53,244 nt of DNA from assembly GCA_012744475.1 (NCBI GenBank), contig JAAYBV010000071.1, positions 1 through 53,244 on the forward strand, written 5' to 3'. The stretch is from Phycisphaerae bacterium (GTDB taxonomy: Bacteria; Planctomycetota; Phycisphaerae; Sedimentisphaerales; Anaerobacaceae). This document shows positions 11,537 through 40,991 of this stretch, piece after piece; position 1 is the stretch's first letter, and each line of letters begins with the position of its first letter. The notes under the pieces are model-generated. The model had not been told where the DNA came from and searched no databases. It saw only the letters and a program-made list of their open reading frames with translations. A program made the position numbers and the translations under genes.

Positions 11537-11594
11537 GGGACCGGTGCATTGAACAGGATAGCAAGCGGTGATCCGGAACGGAGCAGTACAATCG

Positions 11595-14432
11595 ATGAAA
11601 AGCGTCCTCATGGCCATCCTGCTGGCCGGTGCGGTCCTGGCAACCGCGGCACGGGCCCAGGGGCCGGACGGGGTCAAAGACCAGGATCTGGGCGCCTACA
11701 GCCGCGAGGCGACCGACGCCGCCAGGGCGAGACTCAAGGACACCCTGGTGGTGGTCTTCGCCGGCGGACGCCATGGGTTTATCAAAGGACAGCGTGTCAG
11801 CCTCGATCCGCGCGACTGGCGGACGGAAGCGGAAGTGGTCAAAGGCGAGGTGATGGTTCCGAAGCGGTTCGCCCTGTCGGCCTTCGGGATCAAGCACCTG
11901 CCCTGGTTCGGGTTTCGGATCGCCGAAAAGGGAAGGATGGTTTCTCTCTCGGATCTGGCCGCCAGGCTGGGCAAGAAGGTGTTCACGGAGGAACGCGGTC
12001 TGGTGATCGTCTCGGACACGCCGATGACGCTTGACGACTCGCAATTGCTCGACTCGATCATCACCCTGTTCGACACCCCGGAGAAGTTTGCCGACCCGCA
12101 GATTGTCTATCGCAACATCCCCAACCTCAAGGCCTGGGGCCGCTGGGCCGAACACGTCGAGTTCAGGCCCGAGCAGTTGTCACTGTACGATGAGCCCGAA
12201 ACGCAGTGGCGGCTGATCTCGGAGAAGCGCTACGACGAACCGGCCCTCGGCGCGCACGAGCTGGCCAGCGCGGTGCCGCCGGCCGGCGTGCATCCGCGCA
12301 TCCTGTTCGGACCTCAGGATATCCCGCTGATCCTGGCTCGCATCAAGTCGTCTGTTACCGGGTCGATGTCCCTGATCGAGATGGAATACCTGCTGACCCG
12401 GACCTGGCTGAACCCCGATACCAGTGACGGACGCCTCTTCGCACGGCTTCATACCGGAGACCTTGGCGGATTGACGTTTGAGTGGCAGGACGACGGCATC
12501 CTCTCGTCGAACGGCCAGGACATAACGCAGCGCCTCAACACGATCGCTTTGTATGCGCTGTTGACGGAGAACGCCGATCTCGGCGCGAAAGCGGCCGCCG
12601 CAATCTACAACTACTGTAGACTGATCGAGCCTCGGATCGACGCGCACACGGACAAGCCGGATGTGTACAACGCCTACTGGCGAGGGCTGCCGGAGTGGAT
12701 CGGCGCCAGGAACCTCGGGCTGAATTACGATTTTGCCGCCAGGTGGATGACCGCAGAGCAGGCGATGCTGGTCCGACGTGTGATCGCGAAGGTGGTGGGC
12801 GGCCGTCGCGGCTACGGTCAGAACGGTCCGCTGCGCGTACGCGACAACCATTGGGTCACGCGCGACCTGACGATCTTTCTTGCCAATCTGGCTATCGAAG
12901 GAGAGGAGGGTTTTGACGGAGAGGTGCACGATTGCGGCATCGAGACCGTCAAGGCCTTCCTGCAATGGGGCATCGACGAGTATGGCACGCTATACGAATC
13001 CAACGGCGCCGCCGGTGAAGGCCTGCCATTCCAGCTCCTCTCGATGGTGGCTCTCGCCAGGCGCGGCGTCAGCACGTTCGGGCATCCGCACTGGCGAAAG
13101 CTGATGGAGGCGCAGGTGCAGTGCACCTCGCCGGACGGCAGCTTTACAGCCTCTCGCGGCGCGCGTGGCGGGGGGGCCTTGAATCGCCAGATCGTTGGCG
13201 CGTGGAAGATCCTCTATCCGAACGACCGATGCGCCGACTACCTGCTGGGTCCGGCCCACTCCGTGTCCGATTTCGACCCGCGCCAGTACCGGGAGCAATT
13301 GGCTGGACGCGGCGCCGTCGAGTTCGCTCTGCCCGGCCCGACCGCTCCAGGACCGGCCAAGAGCCTGCTATACGACGCCCCGTGGCGCTTGACCTCGCGA
13401 GAGGCGCTCGGCCTGCCTCTGGATTTCAGCGATCCCTCGCGCGGGCTGTTCTCTTCACGCAGCGACAACAGCGCCGAGGCCTTGTGGATCAACATGCAGG
13501 CCCGGCCCGACCTCTATCTCGGCGGCGGGGCCGCGCACCATGACGCTGGTTCGTTCTGTCTTCAGTCCCACGGCGTGACCTGGGGCCGCGACGGACTCTC
13601 CGACAGCGACCCTGCGTCGGCAAGCCATTCGATCGTTCTGATCGATGGCGTCGGTCAGGACGACGGCTCCGGTCTGGCGCCGCCCCGGGTGACGTATCTC
13701 GGGGCTTCGATCGCCGAGGCGGGGGCCATCGCCTCAGCGGACATCCGGAACGCCTACGAGTACATGTGGACGACCCATGTGGACAGTTGGACCGACGAAC
13801 GCATCGCGGCCCATTCGTGGGAGCTGGAGACCGATCCGTTCGTGGTTAGGGTCTTCAAGGGCACGCAGCGCTACCGCATCAACTACGAGGTGCCGCCGCT
13901 GCACAACCCGTGGCTTCCCACGCTGCGCACGCGATTCAACGCCGTCGAATACGCCTATCGTTCGACGGGCCTCGTGCGCGGCAGCCATCCCTATGCGGTT
14001 GTTGTCGATGATATCTGCAAGGACGAGAACACGCATCTCTACCAGTGGCAGATGCAGGGCGGCTTCACGACGGTGGTGTTGCCCGGCCCGGACGCCGAAT
14101 CGCTGGTGCTGACCGCATCGCAAAGCAACGAGATTCCCGACGGCACGCCCATGCTGCTGGTGCAGGAGGTCGGGCCGTCCGCCTGCCGGCTGGAGAATAC
14201 GCGCGACCGGACGCTGGTGGCGACCGAGGCCGTTGCATGCCGATTCCGCATCCTGATGGTGCCGTTTCGGATGGGCGAGGTCCTGCCCAGGGTCAGCGTC
14301 GATGCCTCCACCGGCTCCGTCCAACTCCGATGGGCCGATCAGATCGACGAATTGCAGTTCGAAGTCGCCAAAGACAACCGCACCCGTTTGCGAGTCCTGC
14401 GCGATGGCGAAGAAATGCTACAGAGCAGGTGA
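11595..14432 (+). CDS. Exported heparinase II/III-like polysaccharide lyase
   Basis: 945 residues from the ATG at 11595, which begins a clean Sec signal (MKSVLMAILLAGAVLATAARAQ); a GTG at 11568 is less likely. After the signal, residues about 45-150 look like a copper-amine-oxidase-N type stalk domain (GQRVSLDP, VMVPKRFALSAFG, LAARLGKKVFTEERGLVIVS). From about residue 230 (HPRILFGPQDIP) comes an (alpha/alpha) toroid of the heparinase II/III or alginate-lyase type, with DNHWVTRDLTIFLANL and YESNGAAGEGLPFQ, and from about 600 a beta-sandwich part with SHSIVLIDG and SWELETDPFVVRVF. A lyase acting on uronic acid-containing chains fits its place in a pectin-type cluster, but the substrate and PL family cannot be assigned by eye. 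It lies 38 bases before GH106. Confidence 0.8.
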   Translation: MKSVLMAILLAGAVLATAARAQGPDGVKDQDLGAYSREATDAARARLKDTLVVVFAGGRHGFIKGQRVSLDPRDWRTEAEVVKGEVMVPKRFALSAFGIKHLPWFGFRIAEKGRMVSLSDLAARLGKKVFTEERGLVIVSDTPMTLDDSQLLDSIITLFDTPEKFADPQIVYRNIPNLKAWGRWAEHVEFRPEQLSLYDEPETQWRLISEKRYDEPALGAHELASAVPPAGVHPRILFGPQDIPLILARIKSSVTGSMSLIEMEYLLTRTWLNPDTSDGRLFARLHTGDLGGLTFEWQDDGILSSNGQDITQRLNTIALYALLTENADLGAKAAAAIYNYCRLIEPRIDAHTDKPDVYNAYWRGLPEWIGARNLGLNYDFAARWMTAEQAMLVRRVIAKVVGGRRGYGQNGPLRVRDNHWVTRDLTIFLANLAIEGEEGFDGEVHDCGIETVKAFLQWGIDEYGTLYESNGAAGEGLPFQLLSMVALARRGVSTFGHPHWRKLMEAQVQCTSPDGSFTASRGARGGGALNRQIVGAWKILYPNDRCADYLLGPAHSVSDFDPRQYREQLAGRGAVEFALPGPTAPGPAKSLLYDAPWRLTSREALGLPLDFSDPSRGLFSSRSDNSAEALWINMQARPDLYLGGGAAHHDAGSFCLQSHGVTWGRDGLSDSDPASASHSIVLIDGVGQDDGSGLAPPRVTYLGASIAEAGAIASADIRNAYEYMWTTHVDSWTDERIAAHSWELETDPFVVRVFKGTQRYRINYEVPPLHNPWLPTLRTRFNAVEYAYRSTGLVRGSHPYAVVVDDICKDENTHLYQWQMQGGFTTVVLPGPDAESLVLTASQSNEIPDGTPMLLVQEVGPSACRLENTRDRTLVATEAVACRFRILMVPFRMGEVLPRVSVDASTGSVQLRWADQIDELQFEVAKDNRTRLRVLRDGEEMLQSR

Positions 14433-17338: not shown

Positions 17339-17397
17339 CACCGGGGTCTCGGTTGAGGTTTTCGAGACCATAGATGCTCAACACGAGGAGACAAAAC

Positions 17398-19725
17398 ATG
17401 GACGGATGCCGTCGTGTGCTCATGGCTTTGTTGATAGTGTCGTCGGTCGGTGGGGCCTTGTGTCGAGCCGACGTGTTGCCGACAGGCGGCGCGCGGCCGG
17501 CGATTCCGCTGAAGCATTTTCCGGATCGCCTGCACGCCTTTGTCTGGCGCAACTGGGAATTGATCCCGCTCGAACGCATGGCCGAGGTGCTCCAGACCAC
17601 GCCCCAGAAGGTTCGTGACATCGGTCTGCTGATGGGCCTGCCTCCGCAGATTCCCCCACCGGCCGAGTATCAGCAGCGAGGCTACATCACGATCATTCGC
17701 CGCAACTGGCACCTTCTGCCCTACGAGCAACTGCTGACGCTGCTCGGCTGGGACGCGCAGAAGCTCGCCTTCACGCTCCGCGAGGACGATTTCCTCTGGA
17801 TCAAGCTGGGCTCGCTCAAGCCGGCCTGCGCGCCGATCCGTTATGCCGAGCCAAACGAGGCGACCCTGAAACGCTGCGCCGAGATTCGCGAGATCGTCTG
17901 GTCCCATTTCGGCGAGGCGCTCGCCGCGCCGTCGAAGCCGAGGTTCGAGTTCTTCACTGAGACGGTGATGGATGCGGAAGCAGTCGAAGACCGAAATCGA
18001 AACGGCGAAGAATCGATCCGCTTTCTGTATTCGTACGCGGGGCTTTTCGGGGACCCGCTGCTCCACCCGGAGCTGGACCCTTATCCCGATCTCCTGCTGC
18101 GCCGGCTCTCGCAGTCGGGCGTCAACGGCGTCTGGCTGCACGTCGTGCTCTCGCAACTGGCTCCAAGCGATGCGCTGGGTCGGCCCACGGACGACCACGA
18201 GGTGCGGCTGGCCAACCTGGCAAAAATGGTCGAGCGGGCCGCTCGTCACGGTGTCTCCATCTACCTTTACATGAACGAACCGCGTGCGGTCCTGGCGTCG
18301 CTGCTGGAAGGCCGGGAGGAGCTGCGGGGCGTTCGGCAAGGCGACTATGCGGTGCTCTGCACGTCCGCTCCACAGGTGCGGCAGTGGCTCACGGACTCGC
18401 TGCGGCACGTCTTTGAGAATGTGCCGAACCTCGGCGGCGTCTTCACGATCACCGCGTCGGAGAATTTGACCAACTGCTACAGCCATACCCGCACGGCAAC
18501 GGGATGTCCGCGCTGCTCGCAACGCTCCGGCCCGGAAGTGATCGCCGAGGTCAACGCGGCGATTGCCGCCGGCGTCCGGGCGGGCAGCCCGAAGGCCAGG
18601 GTGATCGTCTGGGATTGGGGCTGGCCGGATGGCACGTCTGCCGGCTGGGGCCAGCCGGACTGGGCCTCCCGCATCATCGAGCTTCTGCCCGACGACGTTT
18701 ATCTGATGTGCGTCAGCGAGTGGGGTAAGCCCATCGCGCGAGGCGGCGTCGCCGGTGCGGTCGGCGAGTATTCGATCTCGGCCGTCGGCCCGGGGCCCCG
18801 GGCGCAGAGGCACTGGGCGCTCGCCCGCCAGCGAGGGCTCAAGACGTTTGCCAAGGTGCAGGTCAATTGCACGTGGGAGCTGTCGGCGGTGCCGTACTTG
18901 CCCGTGATGAATCTCGTCGCCCAGCATTGCAGCAATCTGAGCCAGGCGGGCGTTGACGGGCTGATGCTGAGCTGGACGGTGGGCGGCTATCCATCGCCGA
19001 ACCTCGAACTGGTCCGGCGATTTCAGCAAAGGCCCGCACCGACCGTGGAGCAGGCTCTGATGGAAGTGGCGAGCGCACGATATGGCGCCGAGGCCGCCGC
19101 GGAGATGGCGGCCGGCTGGGCGAGGTTCAGCGAGGCGTTTTCGGAATTCCCGTTCGACGGCAGCTACGTCTACCGTGGTCCCAGTCAGGTCGGCCCGGCC
19201 AACCTGCTCTATTTGGAGCCAACCGGATATGCGTCGACGATGGTCGGGTTCCCTTACGACGACGTGAACGGATGGCGGGGCATCTATCCGGCCGAGGTGC
19301 TGGCCGGGCAGTTCGAGAAGGTCGCTTCCGGCTGGCGGGAAGGGCTGGCTATCTGGAAGAAGGCGACAGGGGGGATCGAAGGGCCTCGCGAACGCGCGAA
19401 TGCTCACAGCGATCTTCTCGTCGCCGAAGCCGCCGGCCTGCACTTCGACAGCGTGGCCAATCAGATTCGATTCGTCCTGGCGCGCAATGCGGCGCGATCC
19501 GGTTCGCTGCCTCAGGCCGAGGCGGATGCGGCGGTCGCAACGATGCGAGCGAAGGCCCTTGCGGAGATGCAGAACGCCGAACGCTTGTTCGCGCTGACAC
19601 GGCAGGACCCGCGCATCGGGTTCGAGGCGTCCAATCATTACTACTACCTGCCGCTCGATCTGGTGGAGAAGGTGGTCAACTGCGAGTACGTCCTCCACGG
19701 GCTGTCCCACCAGACACAGGACTGA
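17398..19725 (+). CDS. Secreted TIM-barrel-like protein, possible new glycosidase family
   Basis: 775 residues from the ATG at 17398, preceded by GAGGAG at 7 bases. A Sec signal (VLMALLIVSSVGGALCRAD) is followed by a duplicated helical unit: RNWELIPLERMAEVLQ (51-66) and RNWHLLPYEQLLTLLG (102-117), the second closing with REDDFLWIKLG. The middle (about 190-560) alternates strands and helices as in GH20/GH67/DUF4838-type barrels: LLLRRLSQSGVNGVWLHVVL, VERAARHGVSIYLYMNEPRA, FTITASENLTNCYSHTR, CPRCSQ, ARVIVWDWGWPDG and DDVYLMCVSEWG. I cannot assign it to a named GH family. Its position between GH106 and GH95 in a run of exo-acting enzymes argues that it acts on the same glycan. The C-terminal third is mostly helical. 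Confidence 0.85.
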   Translation: MDGCRRVLMALLIVSSVGGALCRADVLPTGGARPAIPLKHFPDRLHAFVWRNWELIPLERMAEVLQTTPQKVRDIGLLMGLPPQIPPPAEYQQRGYITIIRRNWHLLPYEQLLTLLGWDAQKLAFTLREDDFLWIKLGSLKPACAPIRYAEPNEATLKRCAEIREIVWSHFGEALAAPSKPRFEFFTETVMDAEAVEDRNRNGEESIRFLYSYAGLFGDPLLHPELDPYPDLLLRRLSQSGVNGVWLHVVLSQLAPSDALGRPTDDHEVRLANLAKMVERAARHGVSIYLYMNEPRAVLASLLEGREELRGVRQGDYAVLCTSAPQVRQWLTDSLRHVFENVPNLGGVFTITASENLTNCYSHTRTATGCPRCSQRSGPEVIAEVNAAIAAGVRAGSPKARVIVWDWGWPDGTSAGWGQPDWASRIIELLPDDVYLMCVSEWGKPIARGGVAGAVGEYSISAVGPGPRAQRHWALARQRGLKTFAKVQVNCTWELSAVPYLPVMNLVAQHCSNLSQAGVDGLMLSWTVGGYPSPNLELVRRFQQRPAPTVEQALMEVASARYGAEAAAEMAAGWARFSEAFSEFPFDGSYVYRGPSQVGPANLLYLEPTGYASTMVGFPYDDVNGWRGIYPAEVLAGQFEKVASGWREGLAIWKKATGGIEGPRERANAHSDLLVAEAAGLHFDSVANQIRFVLARNAARSGSLPQAEADAAVATMRAKALAEMQNAERLFALTRQDPRIGFEASNHYYYLPLDLVEKVVNCEYVLHGLSHQTQD

Positions 19726-27278: not shown

Positions 27279-30200
27279 ATGGACAGGATCAGACATGTCG
27301 GCGTGTGTGCGCTTATCGCGATCCTGGCGGCGGCCTGCTCGCGGGCTTCGGCCAGACCTTCCTGGTCGGACTATCGCGGCAAGCCGGACGAGTGGTTTCG
27401 CAGCGAGCAGGGAATTCGCATCGTCGACAACATTCTATCGTGGCAATCGCCGCAAGGCAGTTGGCCCAAGAACGTCGATACGATGTCTCGCGCGTTCTCC
27501 GGCGATCATGACAACCTGGACGGGACGTTCGACAACGGGGCAACGGTAGACGAGTTGCGGTTTCTCGCCAGAGCTTTCCGCGCAACCGGGGATCGCCGCT
27601 GCGAGCAGGCGTTCCTCAGAGGGCTCGATCACATCCTCGAAGCCCAGTATCCAACCGGAGGCTGGCCGCAGTCCTATCCGCCCGGCAGAGGCTATCCGCG
27701 TCACATCACGTTCAACGATGGGACAATGATCCGCCTGATGGACTTTCTGCGCGAAGTGGCGACGTCGACGGACTATGGGTTCGTCGACCCCGCTCGACGC
27801 GAAGCGGTACGCACCGCCGTCAACCAGGGCGTTCAGTGCGTCCTCAAGTGCCAGGTTGTGGTCAATGGCAAACGGACCGCCTGGTGCGCGCAGCACGACG
27901 AAGTCGACTACAGGCCGCGCCCGGGCCGGACGTACGAACTGGTCTCTCTCAGCGGCGCCGAGAGCGCCGGAATTCTCCGGTTCCTCATGAATCTGGACGA
28001 TCCGAGTCCGGAAGTTACCGAGGCCGTCGCCGCCGGCGTCGCGTGGTTCGAGAGCGCCAAGCTCAGCGGCATCCGGCAGACCCGGGTTGACGGCGACAAG
28101 GTCATCGTCGAAGACGTTGATGCGCAGCCTCTGTGGGCGAGGTTCTACGAGATCGAGACGAATCGCCCGATCTTCTGCGGACGCGACGGTGTCAAGAAGT
28201 ACAGCCTTGCCGAGATCGAGGCGGAACGCCGCAACGGATATGCCTGGTATGGCGATTGGGGCCGACCCCTGGCCTCGGAGTATACCAAGTGGCAGAAGAA
28301 CCGGCCGGCGCCGGCCGACACGAACGACGGCGCAGTTGCGGATCTGAAGATCGTTCGACTGACGTGCGAGTATGCCGAGAATCCTCTGGGTGTCGATGTG
28401 TCGAACCCGCGTCTGTCCTGGAAGCTCGAAAGCGATGCGCGGGGCCGGCGGCAGAGCGCCTATCGGATTCTCGCTTCCTCCTCAGCAGAACGCCTTGCGG
28501 CCGGTGAAGGCGACCTCTGGGACAGCGGCAAAGTCACCTTGGGCGAGACGACGCATGTTGCCTATCGCGGCCGGAAGCTGGCGTCCTCCCAACAGGTCTT
28601 CTGGAAAGTGCGGGTCTGGGACGAGCGGGGTAGCGCCACGAGGTGGAGCGAGCCGGTGTCGTGGACAATGGGCCTGCTCGACGAAACCGATTGGCGGGCG
28701 CACTGGGTTGGCTCGGCGACCGACAGTCAATCGCTTCTGCTGCGCCGTGGAATTGCTGTCAGACATGCTCTGCGTCGAGCGGTGGCGCACGTTTGCGGCC
28801 TCGGTCACTACGAGATGTCGATCAACGGCGCCAGGGTCGGCGAGGACCTGCTGGCGCCAGGCTGGTCCAAGTACGACAAGACGTGTCTGTATGACACCTA
28901 CGATGTGACGCCCTTGTTGCAGGAAGGCGACAACGCGATCGGTCTGATGCTGGGCAACGGCATGTACAACGTCCGGGGTGGGCGCTACATCAAGTTCAAA
29001 GGCTCGTTCGGTCCGCTCAAAGCGATCTGCCACCTGCGGCTGGAATACGCCGATGGCGCGGTGGAAACCGTTGGTACGGACGGGCGATGGCGGACGCATC
29101 CCGGTCCGATCACGTTCTCGTGCGTCTTTGGCGGGGAGGACTATGATGCCCGCCTCGAACCTCGCGGCTGGGACCGCCCCGGTTTTGACGACTCAGGGTG
29201 GCCGGCCGCGCAGGAAGTGGATGGGCCCGGCGGAGCACTCAAAGGCCTGTCTTGTGCGGCAGCGCCGATCCGGGCGTTCGATGTGCTTGAGCCGGTTTCG
29301 GTCAAGCAACTCCGGCCGGGCGTCGCCGTGTACGACTTGGGCCAAAACGCCAGCATTATGCCTCGCCTCAAGACGACAGGTCCGGCCGGCTCGGCCGTGC
29401 GGATCACTCCGGCCGAACTGCTGAAGGACGATGGCTCCGTTGATCGGGGTTCTTGTGGCGGGGGACAGGCCTATTGGCAGTACACCTTCGCCGGCACGAG
29501 GGCCGAGACGTGGTTCCCTAAATTCTTCTATCACGGCAGCCGCTATCTCCAGGTCGAGTGCCTTCCCGCAGAAGGGCGGGATGAGCGGCCTGTCATTGAG
29601 TCGCTGGAGGGCGTGGTGGTGCATTCCTCGGCGCCGCCCGTGGGCGAATTCGCCTGTTCGAACGAGCTGTTCAATCGCATCCACACGCTCATTCGATGGG
29701 CCCAGCGCAGCAACATGGTCAGCGTGATGACCGACTGTCCGCACCGCGAGAAGCTCGGCTGGCTGGAGCAATATCACCTGAACGGCCCCTCGCTGCGGTA
29801 CGAATTCGACCTGATGCGGCTGTTCGCCAAGGGCATGAACGACATGGCCGATTCGCAGCTCGACTCCGGCCTCGTCCCCGACATCGCGCCGGAATACGTC
29901 GTCTTCGACGGCGGGTTCCGCGATTCGCCCGAGTGGGGCAGCGCCTGCGTGCTGGTGCCATGGCAGCAGTACGAGTGGACGGGTGACACCGAACTGCTGC
30001 GTCGCTACTACGACAACATGGCGCGATACGTCGCCTATCTTGGGAGCAAAGCCAAGGATCATATCGTTTCGCATGGCTTAGGCGACTGGTATGACATCGG
30101 TCCCAATCCGCCGGGCTACGCGCAGTTGACGCCGATCCCTTTGACCGCGACCGCCTTCTACTTCTACGACGCGTGGATTCTCTCGGAGACGGCAACGCTG

Positions 30201-30980
30201 TTGGGCAAGACCGGGGACGCCGAACGTTATCGAGCGCTGGCCGCCGGAATCCGGCGTGCGTTCAATGCGGCGTTCTTCGACGAACCGGCGGGACGCTATG
30301 CCACCGGCTCGCAGTGCGCCAACGCGATCGCACTGGTGATGGGACTGGCCGAGACTGAGCACAGGCAATCCGTTCTCGACGCCATCGTCGCCGACGTGCG
30401 CCAGAGGGGCAATGCCATCACCGCAGGCGACGTGGGCTATCGCTATCTGCTGTGCGCTCTGGCGGCCGGAGGGCGTTCCGATGTGATCTTCGATCTGAAC
30501 AACCAGTCCGACAAGCCTGGCTACGGATACCAGCTCAAAATGGGCGCAACCAGCCTGACCGAGGCCTGGGACGCCCGGCGAAGCTCTTCGCACAACCATT
30601 TCATGCTGGGCCAGATCATGGAATGGTTCTATCATGACCTGGCCGGCATCGCGAGCGACCCGGCCGGCCCCGGCTTCCGGAAGATCATCATCCATCCGCA
30701 GCCGGTTGGCGATGTGACGTGGGCGAAGGCGAACTACGACTCGCTGCACGGGAAGATCGCCGTCCAGTGGGATCGGACGGATGGCCGGTTCACGTTGAAG
30801 GCCGCTATCCCCGCCAACACGACTGCCACAGTCTTCATGCCTGTGGGAGCGGACGCAGCGGTTGCGGAGGGCGGTCGCCCGGCCGAGAGCAGTCCCGGCG
30901 TGACGTTCGTGCGTCGCGAACACGGAAGGGCGGTCTATGCTGTCCAGTCGGGGCGATACGAGTTTCACTCCAGACCGTGA
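27279..30980 (+). CDS. PL10 pectate lyase fused to GH78 alpha-L-rhamnosidase, lipoprotein
   Basis: 1233 residues in one uninterrupted frame. The signal ends in LAAAC (Cys20), so it is probably lipid-anchored. Residues about 35-345 are a complete PL10 pectate lyase: [60 protein letters not shown] and [13 protein letters not shown]. After a short linker ([11 protein letters not shown]) GH78 begins at [13 protein letters not shown] (about 360): the N-terminal Ig/lectin domains, the toroid with [12 protein letters not shown] (about 819), [19 protein letters not shown] and the C-terminal beta domain ending near 1230. The PHREKLGW form replaces the usual PQRDERLGWTGD, as in some rhamnosidase subgroups. 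Lyase plus rhamnosidase in one chain suits alternating galacturonate/rhamnose pectin. Start codon spacing is good (TAGGAG). Confidence 0.92.
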
Positions 30981-32682: not shown

Positions 32683-35436
32683 CTACACGAGGGGCTTGCC
32701 GTCGTTGAGCTCTTCGTAGGTGGTGATGTAGCGGGCCACCATGTTGTCCAGGCTCCAGGCCTTCCTCGCTTGGTTCATGATCCGTCGCATCTGCTTTTCC
32801 CACTCCCGCGGATGGTTCTTGAAGTAACGGAGATGCTCGACGGCTTTGCTCAGGCCCCACCAGAGGCCGCCGCTGTCGTAGGTGCGGAACAGCACGCCGT
32901 TGCCGCTGTCGATCGGGGCGCCCCAGGCGCGAAGGCTGAGCTGGGAGATCTTGTCGCTGTAGCCGCCGGTGTCTCGGTTGGTTGCAGTCGCTCCGTGGAT
33001 GTTGCCGACAACGTCGATCTGCCCGAACGGCTCGTATAGCGAGGCTCCGAAGACGTCGGCGGCCGCCGCGTATCCGAGCATGCTCAGATGATGATCGAAC
33101 CGGCGATAGGCGATCCGGCCGCCGGAAGCACAGGCGATCCGCCCCATGATCTCGGCGTGGGTGTTGTCGCCGCCGACGGGGTCTGCTACCACCGCGATCT
33201 GCACGTCCGGATTCTGGTGGACGAATCTGCCGGCGATGTCTTCGAACAGCTCGACGCCTTTCTGCATGGGATCGAGGCGCGACGGCCAGTACAACAGGAT
33301 GGCCTCCGGATCGGAAATCAGACCCATCTTCTGCTGGAACTTCAGGAGATTGAGGCGTTTGGCCGCAAGGATGTTGTCGAACGGTCCGTATCGCTTGGCC
33401 AGGCCGGGCGCATCCGGATCGGGATTCTCCGGCTGGTTCTCCGGGAACACGTCGGGAGAAATGCCGTTGGGGATCACGCACACGGAGCGATTGCGGAACT
33501 TGACTTTCGTCTCTTCCCGAACGCTCCAGGGGATGATCGGCCGGTCGAGGAAGTAGTCCTCCACGATCTCCTTGAGGAACCTCTCCCCAACGTAGCTGAC
33601 CTTCGTGGCGCTCTTGATCGCCGTCGCATGAGAATCGATGCATCGTTTCTGCTGATCGACGGAGATGTAAAGCGCGTTCCAGAGCTTCTCCAGGTTGACG
33701 CCGTAGAGCATATCCAGCGGAATGTGGCCCGTGTGCGTGTTGTGGACGGTGTGCAGAATCGGGGTGCGGCGCAGGTGGGCGTATGCCGCCGCTACCCCGC
33801 CGGCCATCCAGTCGTTCGTGTGCAGAATGGCCCGGCCTTCGTACTTGCTGCGAATCTCCTTGATGTACGTGTTGACGATCTGCCTCTGGAACTCCGCGGC
33901 ATTGGCCAGCGGCCATCCGTCATACGCACTGCGATAGCCTTCGAAGACCGCCGAGCTGACGAGATGAACGTTCTCCGGATTCATCTGGTGACGTTTCTGA
34001 ATCCACTCCGTCTCGCTCAGTCCCGCCTCCTCACGGAAGCGCCGAGTCAAGTTCATCGTGATCAAGTGCACGGGAATGCGTCTCTCGGCCAGCCCCTTGC
34101 ACAACGCCGAGATCACCTCGCCCAGTCCGCCGCTCTTGCCCGATACGTAGCGCGCGAATTGGCCCATCCCCTCCGACGGCAGGCGAGCCGTCTCGGGAGT
34201 GATGATGATCACCGGCGTCTGATGGCTTTTCTGACGGATGTTGAAGTTCCGGATGGCATGGAAAAGTTCGTCGGTGGCGTGGGTCAGCGCAAACGCGGCG
34301 GTAGCAGGCGAATCGTACGGGCTGCTCGCCGCCCATCGGAGGTTCTGCGAGGGATCGTCGCTCTGGAGATATCGCCAGTGGTCCGACGTGGTCAGATAGC
34401 GGAACCTGCGCTGGAGCTCCCCGCCAGCCAGGGTGGCCTGCGCCTCCATGTCCTCGACCCGTTTGAACAGCACGCGCTGCACCTGCGACGGCAGCAGGAC
34501 CGGACCGCGGAGGCCTTCGCCCGTCTCACAGAGGCAATTCGGACAGGGGCAGTCGATCATCGGGCAATCGGTGATCTGGAACCATTCCGCGATCTCACTG
34601 GGATTGGCCGCCATGACATCGACATGTTCGGCGAATTCCTCGTGCAGTCCCCTCCAGAAGGTCTCCATCTGCTCATAGGCGAGCGTTCCCTGTTCGATCA
34701 GGGGGAAGTCGCATGCGACCACCGCGACTTTGCTTTGGGCCTGGCGAATCTGTGCGGCGTACTCTCGAGCGGTGAACGACAACGTGCCCAGACGCGAGAC
34801 CAGTTCCCGGGTCAGTCGGGTGTTGCGAGGCAGCACGGCGAGCTTGCGCGCCCGCCCGTTGCGTCCCTTGGCTCGAAAGACGTGATCGCCGGCAATCGGT
34901 TCGCCGGTGCGCCCGTCGATCATCTTCGCACACGGCTCGCAGAGGACCGCGTGGTATCCCATGTCGGCCACGACGTTGGCGAACTCGTTGTTGTAGAGCA
35001 GTTCGGTGTTGGCAAACGCCGTCGGCCGGACGTCGAAGAGATCGTGGATCCTCTGGCGGTGGAGGGAAACCTGCTCTTTGAATTCCGTCTGTCGTTTGTC
35101 GGAGAAGAACGACGTCAGCGAGTGGTAGTACGTCTGCTCCAGAAGCTCGACCTGGTGGGTGTGACGACCGGCGTCGAACGACTCCGCCAGCGCGCCAAGG
35201 ACTCGGGGGTCGTACTGCTCGGCCTGTTCGAGGAAGGTGCCTGACAGGCAGTAACTGATCTTGAAATCGACATGCGTCTTCACAAGCTCGGTGAACAGAC
35301 GCAGGGTCGGAAGGTAACAGTGCTCGGCGCGGTGGGTGAAGGTGTTCCGGTTCTGCTCGTCCCAGAGAAACGTCGTGCCGTCCGGGTTCAGACGGAAAGG
35401 TTCATGCATTCGCAGGCAGAGGGTCACCAGCGGCAT
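32683..35436 (-). CDS. GH57 - glycogen synthase (GT5-type) fusion
   Basis: 917 residues, no signal, cytoplasmic. Residues 1-400 are GH57: MPLVTLCLRMHEPFRL, FANTELLYNNEFANVVADMG with expected nucleophile Glu145, and VACDFPLIEQGT with Asp243 as likely acid. A Cys-rich patch (TDCPMIDCPCPNCLCETG) follows near 295-312. From about 405 a glycogen-synthase-like glycosyltransferase runs to the end: SGKSGGLGEVISALCKGL (the ADP-glucose KxGGL site), LHTNDWMAGG, HTVHNTHTGHIP, VCVIPNGISPDVF, YWPSRLDPMQKG and YEPFGQIDVVGN. A chain that both builds and trims or transfers alpha-glucan is likely, hence glycogen metabolism. The start has GGAG 9 bases upstream. It is alone in its strand block, 355 bases from the next gene. 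Confidence 0.9.
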   Translation of the reverse strand: MPLVTLCLRMHEPFRLNPDGTTFLWDEQNRNTFTHRAEHCYLPTLRLFTELVKTHVDFKISYCLSGTFLEQAEQYDPRVLGALAESFDAGRHTHQVELLEQTYYHSLTSFFSDKRQTEFKEQVSLHRQRIHDLFDVRPTAFANTELLYNNEFANVVADMGYHAVLCEPCAKMIDGRTGEPIAGDHVFRAKGRNGRARKLAVLPRNTRLTRELVSRLGTLSFTAREYAAQIRQAQSKVAVVACDFPLIEQGTLAYEQMETFWRGLHEEFAEHVDVMAANPSEIAEWFQITDCPMIDCPCPNCLCETGEGLRGPVLLPSQVQRVLFKRVEDMEAQATLAGGELQRRFRYLTTSDHWRYLQSDDPSQNLRWAASSPYDSPATAAFALTHATDELFHAIRNFNIRQKSHQTPVIIITPETARLPSEGMGQFARYVSGKSGGLGEVISALCKGLAERRIPVHLITMNLTRRFREEAGLSETEWIQKRHQMNPENVHLVSSAVFEGYRSAYDGWPLANAAEFQRQIVNTYIKEIRSKYEGRAILHTNDWMAGGVAAAYAHLRRTPILHTVHNTHTGHIPLDMLYGVNLEKLWNALYISVDQQKRCIDSHATAIKSATKVSYVGERFLKEIVEDYFLDRPIIPWSVREETKVKFRNRSVCVIPNGISPDVFPENQPENPDPDAPGLAKRYGPFDNILAAKRLNLLKFQQKMGLISDPEAILLYWPSRLDPMQKGVELFEDIAGRFVHQNPDVQIAVVADPVGGDNTHAEIMGRIACASGGRIAYRRFDHHLSMLGYAAAADVFGASLYEPFGQIDVVGNIHGATATNRDTGGYSDKISQLSLRAWGAPIDSGNGVLFRTYDSGGLWWGLSKAVEHLRYFKNHPREWEKQMRRIMNQARKAWSLDNMVARYITTYEELNDGKPLV

Positions 35437-37596: not shown

Positions 37597-38631
37597 ATGA
37601 ACGGAATTGGCTATCGATTGTTGGTTGCTCTATCGGGAGTGTGCGGCCTGGCCCTGGTGATCGCGGGGCAGGGCTGTGCCGAGAAAGACCCGCCTCCACA
37701 GTCGTCGAGCGGCGGTACGGACGCGCTGAACGGCGTCGAGTTCGTCGAATCCTATTCCTTTCAAGGCGCCGTTCTCGAAGACAAGGACCTCAGCGGCATC
37801 GCGTGCATCTCGCCAACGCGGTGTCTGATCGGGGCCGACGAGAGCGCGGCGGTGCAGGTGGTTGAGCTGTCGCGAGAGGGCCGGACGCTGAATGTGTTAG
37901 GGTCTATCTCGCTGTTGCCCTCGGGCGAGGAGATCGACATCGAGGGAATTGCCGCCGAGGGCGACTGCTACTACATCGTCGGCTCGCACGGCGTCGCCAA
38001 GAAAAGCGGACAGCGTCAGGCGAAGCGATATACCATCTGCCGGCTGAAGGTCGACCCGACCAGCGGGATGCCACTGGGCAATGCCGTCACGCTGGCCAGT
38101 CTTACGCCGATTCTCGAAACGGACCCGATCCTGCGTCCGTATTTCGCCAAACCTCTCCAGCAGAAGGGCGTAAACATCGAGGGGCTGGCGATCCGACAGG
38201 GACATCTGTTCGTCGGCCTGCGCAATCCCAACCTGGACGGGAACGCTTTCGTCCTGGAGGTGGAAGCCGGGGCGGTGTTTTCGGGGGTCTCGCGTCCAGC
38301 ATACACGCTGCACAAGCTGTCACTGGGTAGAGGGCTGGGCGTTCGTGAGATCGTCGCGGCCAGAGAGGGCTTCCTGATCATCGCGGGCAACGCCGGTTCC
38401 GAACCGTCGGATGTCTACCTGCAAGCCGAGGATTACGAGGAGCGTCGCGGCTATGACCTGTTTCGCTGGGACGGCCGCGGCAGCGCGGTCCGGAAGATCG
38501 GATCGATTCCGAATCCACCCGGCAAGGCAGAGGCCATGGCGATTCTGGAGGACGGGCCGGAGTATACGGAGGTCCTCATTCTTTTCGACGGCGCCAAACG
38601 GGGCGCACCTTCGGTCTATCGTTTTCGTTGA
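37597..38631 (+). CDS. DUF3616-like exported protein
   Basis: 344 residues. A signal peptide ends at GQGC (Cys27), an imperfect lipobox, and is followed by a low-complexity linker (EKDPPPQSSSGGTD). The rest reads as a beta-propeller-like domain of the DUF3616 / esterase-phytase-like group: DKDLSGIACISPTRCLIGAD, EEIDIEGIAAEGDCYYIVGS, NIEGLAIRQGHLFVGLRNP, GLGVREIVAAREGFLIIAGN and GKAEAMAILEDG. These are repeated (I/L)EG(I/L)A blades seen in phytase-like proteins. No activity can be assigned. The next gene starts 38 bases later and is probably co-transcribed. Confidence 0.8.
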   Translation: MNGIGYRLLVALSGVCGLALVIAGQGCAEKDPPPQSSSGGTDALNGVEFVESYSFQGAVLEDKDLSGIACISPTRCLIGADESAAVQVVELSREGRTLNVLGSISLLPSGEEIDIEGIAAEGDCYYIVGSHGVAKKSGQRQAKRYTICRLKVDPTSGMPLGNAVTLASLTPILETDPILRPYFAKPLQQKGVNIEGLAIRQGHLFVGLRNPNLDGNAFVLEVEAGAVFSGVSRPAYTLHKLSLGRGLGVREIVAAREGFLIIAGNAGSEPSDVYLQAEDYEERRGYDLFRWDGRGSAVRKIGSIPNPPGKAEAMAILEDGPEYTEVLILFDGAKRGAPSVYRFR

Positions 38632-38669
38632 ACCACCTCGTCACGAGTCCTCTTGTCGGAGGTCACACC

Positions 38670-40991
38670 ATGCGCAAAGCCAGGTGCCTGTGGGGAGTAT
38701 CGATACTGATCGTCGGCGTGGTTATCGTCTCGCCACTCGATGCGGCCGACGTGCTGCGGATCGAGAACGAGCTTCTGGCGGTCGAATTCGATGCGGGACA
38801 AGCGACGTTCGCGGCGATCGCGAAACCGTCCGGATCGCGGTTCATCGAGCGAGGTTTGCTGCGCGCGAGGGGAGGCAGGGCGACGCGGCACGAGGTCAGC
38901 GACACGATCTGGGGAAGTGGCGAGGCAATCGAGGTTGAACACGACGCAGGCGGCTCCGACCGATTGGCGTTGTTTCAAGGCTTGCCGTTCGCCGTCCTGA
39001 CGTCTCGACTGGCCAACCCGGGCAGCGAGGCCAGGACGGTGGACCGCATTGCTGCGATGGGGCTGACGCTGGATTTGGGCAAACCCGTGGCGGACCTGCG
39101 CGCATTTGGAACCGCTGGGCTGACTGGGGTGGGCGGCGAGGCCAACCCGGGCAGCTATTCGTTCCTGGCGGTGGTCGAGCCGGACAGCCGAGCGGGTGTT
39201 GTGGCCGGCTGGGTCTCGCATGACCGGGGCAGCGGCGTATTGTTCTCCGATGTCAAGGATGGCAAACCTGTCGTCGATGGGCGGCTCGACTACGGCAAGC
39301 TGCTGATTGAGCCGGGCCGGACGGTCAAATCGGAGACGCTGGTCGTCGGGCATTTCGCCGATGCCCGTCTGGGGCTGGAAGCCTATGCCGACGCGGTCGC
39401 GAGATACTATCGCATCGCGTTGCCGCCGCAACCGACGGTGTACTGCACGTGGTACCACGCCGGAGCATCCAACGAGAAGGACATTATCAGGAACGCCGCC
39501 TTTGCGCGCGAGCACCTGGCGCCCTACGGTTTCTCCGTGATCCAGATCGACGACAAATGGCAGGACGGCGCGCCGATCGAAGGGCCGCGCAAGAACTTTA
39601 CCACGCACCGTGCCGATGGACCGTACCCTTCGGGCATGGCGCCGACGGCGGCGAAGTTGGAGAGACTCGGCATGACGCCCGGCATCTGGTTCATGCCGTT
39701 CGCGGGCACGTGGGACGACCCGTTCTTCGCCGACAAGCAGGAGATGTTTGCGCAAAAGGACGGCAAGCCGTACGTCGTGCACTGGGGCGGCACGTGCTTC
39801 GACCTGACGCACCCGAAGACGCGGGCATATGTCTACGATGTGGCCCGGCGGATCGCCCACGACTGGGGCTACAAGTACTTCAAGCTCGACGGACTCTGGA
39901 CCGGTATGGCGACCGGGATGTGCTACGTCAATACGGGCTACAAGGAGGATGAACTGGGCTCGACGAAACTGCACGATCCGCACGTGACGCACGTCCAGGC
40001 GTATCGCGACGGCCTGAAACTGGTGCGCGAGGCCGCCGGGCCGGATGTGTTCATTCTTGGCTGCAACGTCGCGCAGAACATGCGCGTGCTGGGGGCTTCG
40101 TTCGGCCTGGTCGATGCGATGCGGATCGGGCCTGACAACGGGCGGGACTGGTCGGCGATCTGCCGGGGGCCGTTCAGCGGCAGCAACACGTACTTCCTGC
40201 ACGGCCGGGTCTGGTACAACGACCCCGACCCCATCTACGTCCGGGACAGTGTGCCTCTGGAGCACGCCCGGGCGCTCTGTTCGTGGGTGACGCTGACGGG
40301 GCAACTGAACGCCAGCAGCATCCAGTTCGAGGACCTCTCGGCCGAGCGACTGCACCTGCTCCAGCGCACAATGCCGGCCCATGGCCGAAAGCCCCGCCCG
40401 GTGGACCTGTTCGAGCAGAAGATTCCCCGCGTCTGGCTGCTGACCGACGGCGAAGACCGCCGTCGGCGGGACGTGTTCGGCCTGTTCAACTGGGATGAGA
40501 AGCAACCCGCGCGGATCGAGCACACGTTTGCGCAAATCGGCCTGGTGCCGGTCGAGTCCTACGTCGGTTTCGACTATTGGTCCAACGAGTTTGTTGAGCC
40601 GTTCAGCGGCAGCCTCAACGCGACCCTTCCGCCGGCCAGTTGCCGTATCCTCGCGGTCCGCCCGGTCGCAGCGCACCCGCAGGTCTTGAGCACCTCGCGC
40701 CACATCACACAGGGCGTTATCGATCTCGTCGCGGAGAAGTGGGAGGAGAGCACCCGCACGCTCGCCGGCACCAGCCGCATTGTAGGTGGCGACCCCTACG
40801 AGCTCCGCATCGCCGCCGGCGGCCCGGGCAGGGCTTGGCGCGTGAACGACCTCTCTGTTGCGGCCGGGGAGGATCGCCCAGGAACAACCATCAAACTGGT
40901 GGGCCAGGATGACTGGAGAGTCCGCATCCGGATCGACACGCCGCAGATTGGTGAAGTCATCTGGCGCGTGACGTTCGCACCGCCTCAATGA
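38670..40991 (+). CDS. GH36-type alpha-galactosidase, exported
   Basis: 773 residues from the ATG at 38670 (GGAGGT upstream); an earlier in-frame start at 38628 would precede the signal. A Sec signal (WGVSILIVGVVIVSPLDAAD) is followed by an N-terminal beta-supersandwich, then the clan GH-D barrel: FSVIQIDDKWQDG, GMTPGIWFMPFAG, nucleophile Asp407 in YFKLDGLW, and acid/base Asp489 in RIGPDNGRD. A C-terminal beta domain ends in VIWRVTFAP. Alpha-galactosidase is the likely activity, though clan D also contains other alpha-glycosidases. It sits outside the main cluster, next to the DUF3616-like gene. Confidence 0.88.
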   Translation: MRKARCLWGVSILIVGVVIVSPLDAADVLRIENELLAVEFDAGQATFAAIAKPSGSRFIERGLLRARGGRATRHEVSDTIWGSGEAIEVEHDAGGSDRLALFQGLPFAVLTSRLANPGSEARTVDRIAAMGLTLDLGKPVADLRAFGTAGLTGVGGEANPGSYSFLAVVEPDSRAGVVAGWVSHDRGSGVLFSDVKDGKPVVDGRLDYGKLLIEPGRTVKSETLVVGHFADARLGLEAYADAVARYYRIALPPQPTVYCTWYHAGASNEKDIIRNAAFAREHLAPYGFSVIQIDDKWQDGAPIEGPRKNFTTHRADGPYPSGMAPTAAKLERLGMTPGIWFMPFAGTWDDPFFADKQEMFAQKDGKPYVVHWGGTCFDLTHPKTRAYVYDVARRIAHDWGYKYFKLDGLWTGMATGMCYVNTGYKEDELGSTKLHDPHVTHVQAYRDGLKLVREAAGPDVFILGCNVAQNMRVLGASFGLVDAMRIGPDNGRDWSAICRGPFSGSNTYFLHGRVWYNDPDPIYVRDSVPLEHARALCSWVTLTGQLNASSIQFEDLSAERLHLLQRTMPAHGRKPRPVDLFEQKIPRVWLLTDGEDRRRRDVFGLFNWDEKQPARIEHTFAQIGLVPVESYVGFDYWSNEFVEPFSGSLNATLPPASCRILAVRPVAAHPQVLSTSRHITQGVIDLVAEKWEESTRTLAGTSRIVGGDPYELRIAAGGPGRAWRVNDLSVAAGEDRPGTTIKLVGQDDWRVRIRIDTPQIGEVIWRVTFAPPQ

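Follow-up and report, generated by a model that had tools for sequence, protein, structure and literature searches.

Contig JAAYBV010000071.1 of a Phycisphaerae bacterium, analysed here over its 53,244 nucleotides (the window), carries at 17398..19725 on the forward strand a gene whose product is predicted to be a secreted, catalytically competent glycosidase. Because of its predicted fold and its profile relationships, this candidate glycosidase is placed in the superfamily of DUF4838 and the glycoside hydrolase (GH) families GH20 and GH67, in a family that is unnamed in the libraries searched. We consider this reading, in which the enzymatic activity is a prediction, reasonably probable. A further-reaching proposal is that the protein is the founder of a new GH family spread over at least five phyla, in which GH67-type carboxylates, an invariant four-cysteine metal site next to the acid and a previously unseen, helix-turn-helix-like double three-helix front module, standing in for the region usually found before the barrel, are brought together. 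We hold this proposal to be possible but rather doubtful; if true, the specificity would differ from that of the related glucuronidases and hexosaminidases. If the predicted activity holds, relatives of an enzyme class without a name in Pfam and NCBIfam (one member having been scanned with both) are encoded in 355 pattern-matched stretches, with a range that includes Planctomycetota, Bacteroidota, Verrucomicrobiota, Omnitrophota, Hydrogenedentota and a few others. The profile link ties this family to DUF4838, and the sharply conserved residues of the protein make its activity and mechanism directly testable.

Predicted fold and nearest families

All features described below lie on the forward strand, and residues are numbered from position 17374, where the mechanically called open reading frame (ORF; 17374-19725, 783 aa) begins. 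The AlphaFold2 model, computed from an alignment of 69 sequences, had a mean pLDDT of 92.4 and a pTM of 0.91. With high confidence, the protein is predicted to consist of a (beta/alpha)8 barrel (residues 205-556, 17986..19041) flanked by a helical N-terminal domain and by a helical C-terminal domain (residues 557-783, 19042..19722). The barrel strands were taken to start at residues 215, 252, 295, 355, 409, 443, 490 and 529, corresponding to eight of the 12 strands of the model; this assignment is our own reading, the four other short strands being regarded as hairpins. A previous sequence-only reading of the gene had noted a barrel-like pattern, and a barrel was indeed obtained, not the non-barrel fold that it had named as a refutation. 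The AlphaFold and Foldseek check that it had proposed ranked structures of GH67 (E 2.7e-8), GH89 (6.7e-8) and GH115 (2.6e-7) first among the chains of the Protein Data Bank (PDB), with 1gql at 2.7e-8, 1mqq at 3.3e-8, 4xwh at 6.7e-8 and 4c91 at 2.6e-7. In the VIA comparison, the GH67 structure 1l8n was matched with Z 17.4 and a root-mean-square deviation (rmsd) of 4.8 over 403 aligned residues, covering model residues 205-731.

The absence of a family signature, also claimed in that reading, was confirmed in the libraries searched: the candidate glycosidase had no match in Pfam at E≤1 or in NCBIfam at E≤5, and its single match in PADLOC was at chance level (E 0.2). The curated profiles of DUF4838 (PF16126, cut-off 26.6 bits), GH67 (PF07488) and GH20 (PF00728) were thus not matched at E≤1. 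Scanning of eight distant relatives gave no Pfam match above cut-off and none to DUF4838 at E≤1, with two weak matches in one protein only (GH20b, E 0.014; GH67M, E 0.072). Searches of PDB by sequence gave no meaningful match with the single protein and one chance-level match (E 0.38) with the 69-row profile, and no match was obtained by tblastn in plasmid records. No publication on this protein family was found in the literature covered, which excludes most subscription journals. It has to be noted that the term unnamed is relative to Pfam and NCBIfam, the CAZy/dbCAN models being outside the comparison.

Relatives were collected through six peptide patterns in a GTDB-based collection of species genomes, where they matched the above 355 stretches; these are not established as distinct genes, and further relatives may be missed by the patterns. 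Eighty stretches were kept as loci and assigned by eye from their record titles, mostly metagenome-assembled genomes in which binning errors are possible: 32 belonged to Planctomycetota, 20 to Bacteroidota, 12 to Verrucomicrobiota, five to Omnitrophota and five to Hydrogenedentota, so that five phyla had at least five loci each, with one each from Lentisphaerae, Chthonomonas and Desulfomonile and three titled only 'bacterium'. A closed frame of more than 700 aa was present in 77 of the 80 (L044, L062 and L088 were dropped), and 68 of these, after removal of nine to thin the set, formed together with the window protein the 69-row alignment (A1). For the distant set, 13 regions were fetched, L129 and L132 were dropped for lack of a tblastn hit and L030 was added, resulting in 12 rows (L120-L128, L130, L131 and L030) that are 25-32% identical over the matched stretch; close and distant relatives together make up the 81-row alignment. 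Within the order, the family was matched in 36 of 161 genomes, in seven of them by distant relatives only, and a phylum sample gave matches in 14 of 392 genomes, the genome of the window being counted. No second copy was found in this genome when it was searched with the whole protein (E≤0.001).

Profile-profile comparison was more selective than the fold ranking and pointed to DUF4838 as the nearest described family. In these comparisons, in which each hhalign E-value refers to a single pair, the profile of the 81 relatives aligned to DUF4838 at 97.6% (pair E 3.5e-12) over 252 columns, beginning just past strand 3 and reaching into the C-terminal domain. The values were 87-91% for a divergent GH20-like set, 39-57% for a strong GH20 set and 76-87% for GH67, over 113 columns that end just beyond the acid Glu. 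GH84 and GH115 are present among the fold hits, and their profile values were 2.5% or less (three strong and seven weak members) and 2.3% (a smaller profile of only two sequences), respectively. The sets comprised 25 of 30 loci for DUF4838, six strong and 11 weak of 20 for GH20, three strong and seven weak of 12 for GH84, and nine of 11 for GH67 (L135 was weak and L175 was not read as a full frame). As judged by profile-profile comparison, the barrel is predicted to share ancestry with DUF4838. The profile of ten DUF4838 members (A4, chosen by us from the 25) in turn found PDB chains of GH67 (E 9.6e-12), GH115 and GH84, mainly via the front domain, indicating that the four families hang together; no chain named GH163 was among its 41 PDB matches, and a DUF4838 protein of this genome, searched by itself, matched no PDB chain. 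For GH115 and GH67, a structural comparison with Z 16.1 and rmsd 4.7 over 470 residues at 11% identity is called a distant link in PMC3879575.

The proximity to DUF4838 opens the alternative that the protein is a divergent member of a described family, be it DUF4838/GH163 or a CAZy family absent from Pfam and NCBIfam, which looks new since the curated profiles stop short of it. The profile-profile score, the four Cys residues that DUF4838 has in the same order (C...CxCxxC) and the fact that novelty was judged without CAZy/dbCAN models speak in favour of this alternative. Moreover, one DUF4838 protein is listed as GH163 in PMC9870897, besides which the literature searched gave no other mention of DUF4838, and a GH163 enzyme of B. 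thetaiotaomicron cuts GlcNAc-beta-1,2-Man in complex N-glycans, according to PMC10154615. This GH163 label led us to lower our confidence in an unnamed family and to raise that in a described one. On the contrary, no direct DUF4838 match was obtained in the candidate or in the eight distant relatives, Glu363 is present in all 81 rows at a position where DUF4838 aligns an Asp, and the N-terminal module gave no DUF4838, GH20 or GH67 profile alignment. Altogether, we regard membership of a described family as unlikely, although with a real chance of being correct. The proposal of a possible new glycosidase family made in the sequence-only reading stands as the most probable one, with no direct match to a named family in the libraries searched, and is qualified by the distant tie to DUF4838, the nearest family by profile, with its GH163 label.

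As a separate observation, a GH67 query matched 60 plasmid records, 34 of them with an organism name starting with Candidatus; the eleven Candidatus records listed (H10-H20) were Candidatus Stammera capleta, with 28-39% identity to the query.

Conserved residues and predicted active site

Eighteen positions are invariant in the 81 rows: Gly249, Pro303, Cys329, Gly355, Ile359, Glu363, Cys368, Cys378, Cys381, Trp417, Tyr466, Gly472, Glu502, Pro510, Trp534, Pro603, Asp629 and Glu731. The paired Glu/Asp that the sequence-only reading had expected in the barrel were found as conserved carboxylates located, by residue number, just after barrel strands. Glu363 (18460..18462), just after strand 4, is the predicted general acid, because it is strictly conserved and aligned with the acid Glu of GH67 (in the motif SEGQ) and with the Glu of the pair after strand 4 in GH20-like proteins. 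The GH67 sequences of PDB entries 1gqi and 1h41 have Glu and Ala, respectively, at the position aligned with Glu363, a difference that is consistent with an acid mutant. Further carboxylates are Glu449 after strand 6 (18718..18720; Glu in 79 and Asp in two of the 81 rows), Glu465 (18766..18768; Glu in 75, Asp in six), Glu502 after strand 7 (18877..18879; Glu in all) and position 302 (Glu in 79, Asn in two).

In the mechanism that we propose, Glu363 would act as general acid, and Glu502, aided by Glu449 or Glu465, would activate a water molecule for direct attack, perhaps with inversion as in GH67. The choice of base and the inverting scheme are drawn from the order of the residues on the barrel and represent the weakest step of the proposal. 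Beyond the 403 residues over which the barrel and helical C-domain align with GH67 (PF07488; 1gqi, 1mqq, 1l8n), the top Foldseek hit, the two differ in that the candidate has no Pfam match to it, its N-domain is not aligned, and the base residues are not alignable: a forced global alignment gave a meaningless result for them. A second difference, seen by eye, lies after strand 5, where GH67 has the motif WR, whose Arg binds the carboxylate, and the candidate has Asp414 (18613..18615), present in 69 of 69 close relatives. Since the residue following the strand-5 Trp is Asp instead of Arg, a neutral or amino sugar would be a more likely substrate than a uronic acid; this is a weak indication, and the Asp is kept in only four of the 12 distant relatives.

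The GH20 motif known as the D-E pair was not found after strand 4 in any of the 81 rows of the candidate family, which has Ser362-Glu363 in the window protein; the residue preceding the Glu is Ser in 68 and Cys in one of the 69 close sequences, and Ser or Gly in the 12 distant ones. In the related DUF4091 beta-NGAs, the 2-acetamido group is stabilised by the Asp of this pair, with the Glu serving as acid-base, as described in PMC11087588. The presence of Ser362 in place of that Asp speaks against a GH20-type, substrate-assisted mechanism. It also separates the candidate, along with the lack of a Pfam match, from GH20 and GH20-like proteins (PF00728), with which Glu363 is otherwise shared.

The four Cys residues beside the acid, Cys329 (18358..18360) and the C...CxxC formed by Cys368, Cys378 and Cys381 (18475..18516), would probably bind a structural metal ion. 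In DUF4838, CxCxxC was present in 18 of 25 members, with an Asp upstream of the motif in all 18; in the ten members selected from these, both the four Cys and the Asp aligned to Glu363 were invariant. GH127 is a glycosidase family with a zinc centre and, by analogy, the cysteines might instead form a catalytic zinc-thiolate centre, making the protein a metal- or Cys-dependent glycosidase. Their invariance in 81 of 81 rows and the location of Cys368 five residues after Glu363 would fit such a centre; however, a CxxC with two further Cys is commonplace in structural zinc sites, the motif occurs in those 18 DUF4838 members without the Glu, and the four Cys might also form two disulphides. We consider a catalytic role of the cysteines highly improbable.

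It could also be argued that the protein is a non-catalytic glycan-binding or scaffold protein built on a barrel fold, as its gene neighbourhoods vary and exactly one match was found in 27 of the 36 matching genomes of the order, as might be the case for a housekeeping binder. The retention of Glu/Asp at positions 302, 363, 449, 465 and 502 in at least 79 of the 81 rows, across distant groups, makes this very unlikely, the more so as pseudo-enzymes usually lose the acid.

Several observations weigh against the interpretation as a catalytically competent glycosidase of the GH20/GH67/DUF4838 superfamily. Among the ten best Foldseek hits, those to GH67, GH89 and GH115 had query-normalised TM-scores of just 0.33-0.39. 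The highest VIA score corresponded to the catalytic region of Cwp19 (5oq2; Z 19.4, rmsd 3.9, 302 aligned residues, 14% identity), in an alignment limited to the barrel (model residues 211-549), and beta-amylases and the GH42/GH35 barrels lay within about 1 Z of GH67; since many barrels score close together, the VIA Z alone cannot pick a family. Strands 5-8, the barrel half in which the proposed base is located, carry the carboxylates Glu449, Glu465 and Glu502, and the profile comparison of this half with GH67 gave a non-significant 0.1%. Furthermore, an inverting scheme like that of GH67 may not be the right model, because DUF4838, the closest family by profile, aligns an Asp with the acid Glu363, and GH163, a label given to one of its proteins, cleaves at GlcNAc linkages (PMC9870897 and PMC10154615). 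Finally, the gene neighbourhood is not conserved and indicates no substrate.

The duplicated N-terminal module

The N-terminal helical module (residues 34-204, 17473..17985) had a pLDDT of 90.9 and a pTM of 0.86 when folded alone. An internal duplication had been suggested in the sequence-only reading, and the present data support it: residues 52-87 (RNWELIP..., 17527..17634) and 103-138 (RNWHLLP..., 17680..17787), at an offset of 51, had a mean BLOSUM62 score of 0.59 over the 69-row alignment, in comparison with a maximum of 0.05 among 2691 random window pairs (mean -0.98, s.d. 0.26) and with -0.30 for the next best offset tried. In the models, three helices occur twice at this same spacing, that is, three helices per unit.

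The module matched nothing significantly in PDB (best Foldseek E 1.0, best VIA Z 3.0), the weak structural matches being largely DNA-binding helix-turn-helix and spliceosome proteins, and in the window protein it matched no Pfam family. Seventeen Pfam families, several of helix-turn-helix type, gave weak matches to the modules of one or two of the 69 members (best E 0.0033), and assignment to a helix-turn-helix family was rejected as a mere resemblance. In the genomes of the order, all 30 listed places of the module coincided with matches of the whole protein, so within this order it was seen only together with this barrel. Six distant relatives (L120, L121, L122, L124, L130 and L131) carry a longer N-terminal region resembling GH20b, based on one Pfam match (E 0.014) and an hhalign value to GH20 of 29.6%, and the remaining six of the 12 start close to the barrel. 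These weak matches at the front of the distant relatives suggest that the branch of the candidate has undergone an exchange of its front module. The double three-helix module, located where some distant relatives have the GH20b-like region, would probably cap or scaffold the barrel.

Gene organization and genomic context

The coding sequence at 17398..19725, stop codon included, starts at Met9 of the 783-aa ORF and encodes 775 aa. The ATG at 17398, already chosen in the sequence-only reading, is supported as the start by a Shine-Dalgarno-like GAGGAG (17385..17390) seven bases before it, and all the sequence motifs quoted in that reading were located in the ORF. A signal peptide is predicted from Met9 to about Ala32 (17398..17469; cleavage site placed by eye), with a hydrophobic run, VLMALLIVSSVG, at residues 15-26. 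Because of this run the protein is probably secreted, as had been proposed, and a similar run was found near the chosen start in 53 of the 69 aligned relatives. The position of the gene between GH106 and GH95 was also confirmed, with same-strand neighbours matching PF17132 upstream (E 5.5e-70) and PF22124 downstream (E 1.1e-179); the run beyond GH95 carries GH43, GH2, PL10-GH78 and GH51 domains.

A link to rhamnogalacturonan, suggested by these neighbours, turned out to be weak, because orthologues rarely have them. A tblastn search (E≤1e-15) for relatives of the neighbouring genes of the window covered 85 loci (the 80 kept and five larger regions), equivalent to about 81 distinct sites since four larger regions look like repeats, and with flanks that are often short. 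GH95 was found near two of the 85, GH51 near two, GH43 and GH2 near one each, PL10-GH78 as a 68-aa piece at one, and GH106 near none. A locus of the same genus (L213) keeps the order target-GH95-GH43-GH2 and is the sole such locus of the 85; another, at 85% identity (L214), has none of the seven window neighbours. Among 159 genomes of the order, GH106 was present in 26 of 27 carriers vs 70 of 132 others (Fisher p 7e-6), and the GH20 control in 24 of 27 vs 77 of 132 (p 0.002). The co-occurrence with GH106 is thus not specific and was set aside as a substrate clue, given that the control was enriched as well and that the counts were corrected neither for relatedness among the genomes nor for their size. 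In this count, nine genomes with the protein and no module match were taken as non-carriers (G005 and G074, which have fragments, and seven whose only matches are distant relatives).

A mechanical scan of 87 same-strand nearest ORFs, out of 498 flanking ones, gave a varied picture. Among the 25 listed of the 114 neighbour families matched, GH109 was found in three members, GH5 and sialidase-like BNR in two each, and GH95, GH2 and RGL11 in one each, along with transporters and housekeeping proteins. Operon-like neighbours recur in loci of Chitinophagaceae and related groups (L090, L091, L094 and L097, with L091 assigned by cluster). The order in L094 is a divergent LacI regulator, SDR, 3HCDH, M19 peptidase, GH109, the target, an MFS transporter, an unnamed 454-aa protein, a PfkB kinase and a class III aminotransferase, and the listing for L097 has no GH109 gene; this cluster possibly corresponds to an amino-sugar pathway. 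In another locus (L035), GH127 is encoded two genes downstream of the family member. These neighbourhoods point to differing glycans and fix no substrate. In a further locus, the nearest upstream ORF of a family member (L106:3100-5730, +) has a partial DUF4838 match (E 9.8e-8).

Other ORFs of the window also showed unusual features. Upstream of GH106, a 954-aa ORF at 11568-14432 (+) is a putative gene whose best Pfam match (E 0.29) is not significant. The ORF at 27279-30980 (+) fuses a pectic acid lyase domain (PF09492) with GH78-type rhamnosidase domains, and that at 32683-35436 (-) fuses GH57 with a starch-synthase-type GT5 domain; the overlapping ORF at 33088-35244 (+), with no Pfam match at E≤0.01, is probably its shadow. 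Finally, the 787-aa ORF at 38628-40991 (+) matched the GH31 and melibiase C-terminal profiles below cut-off and is perhaps another divergent glycosidase.

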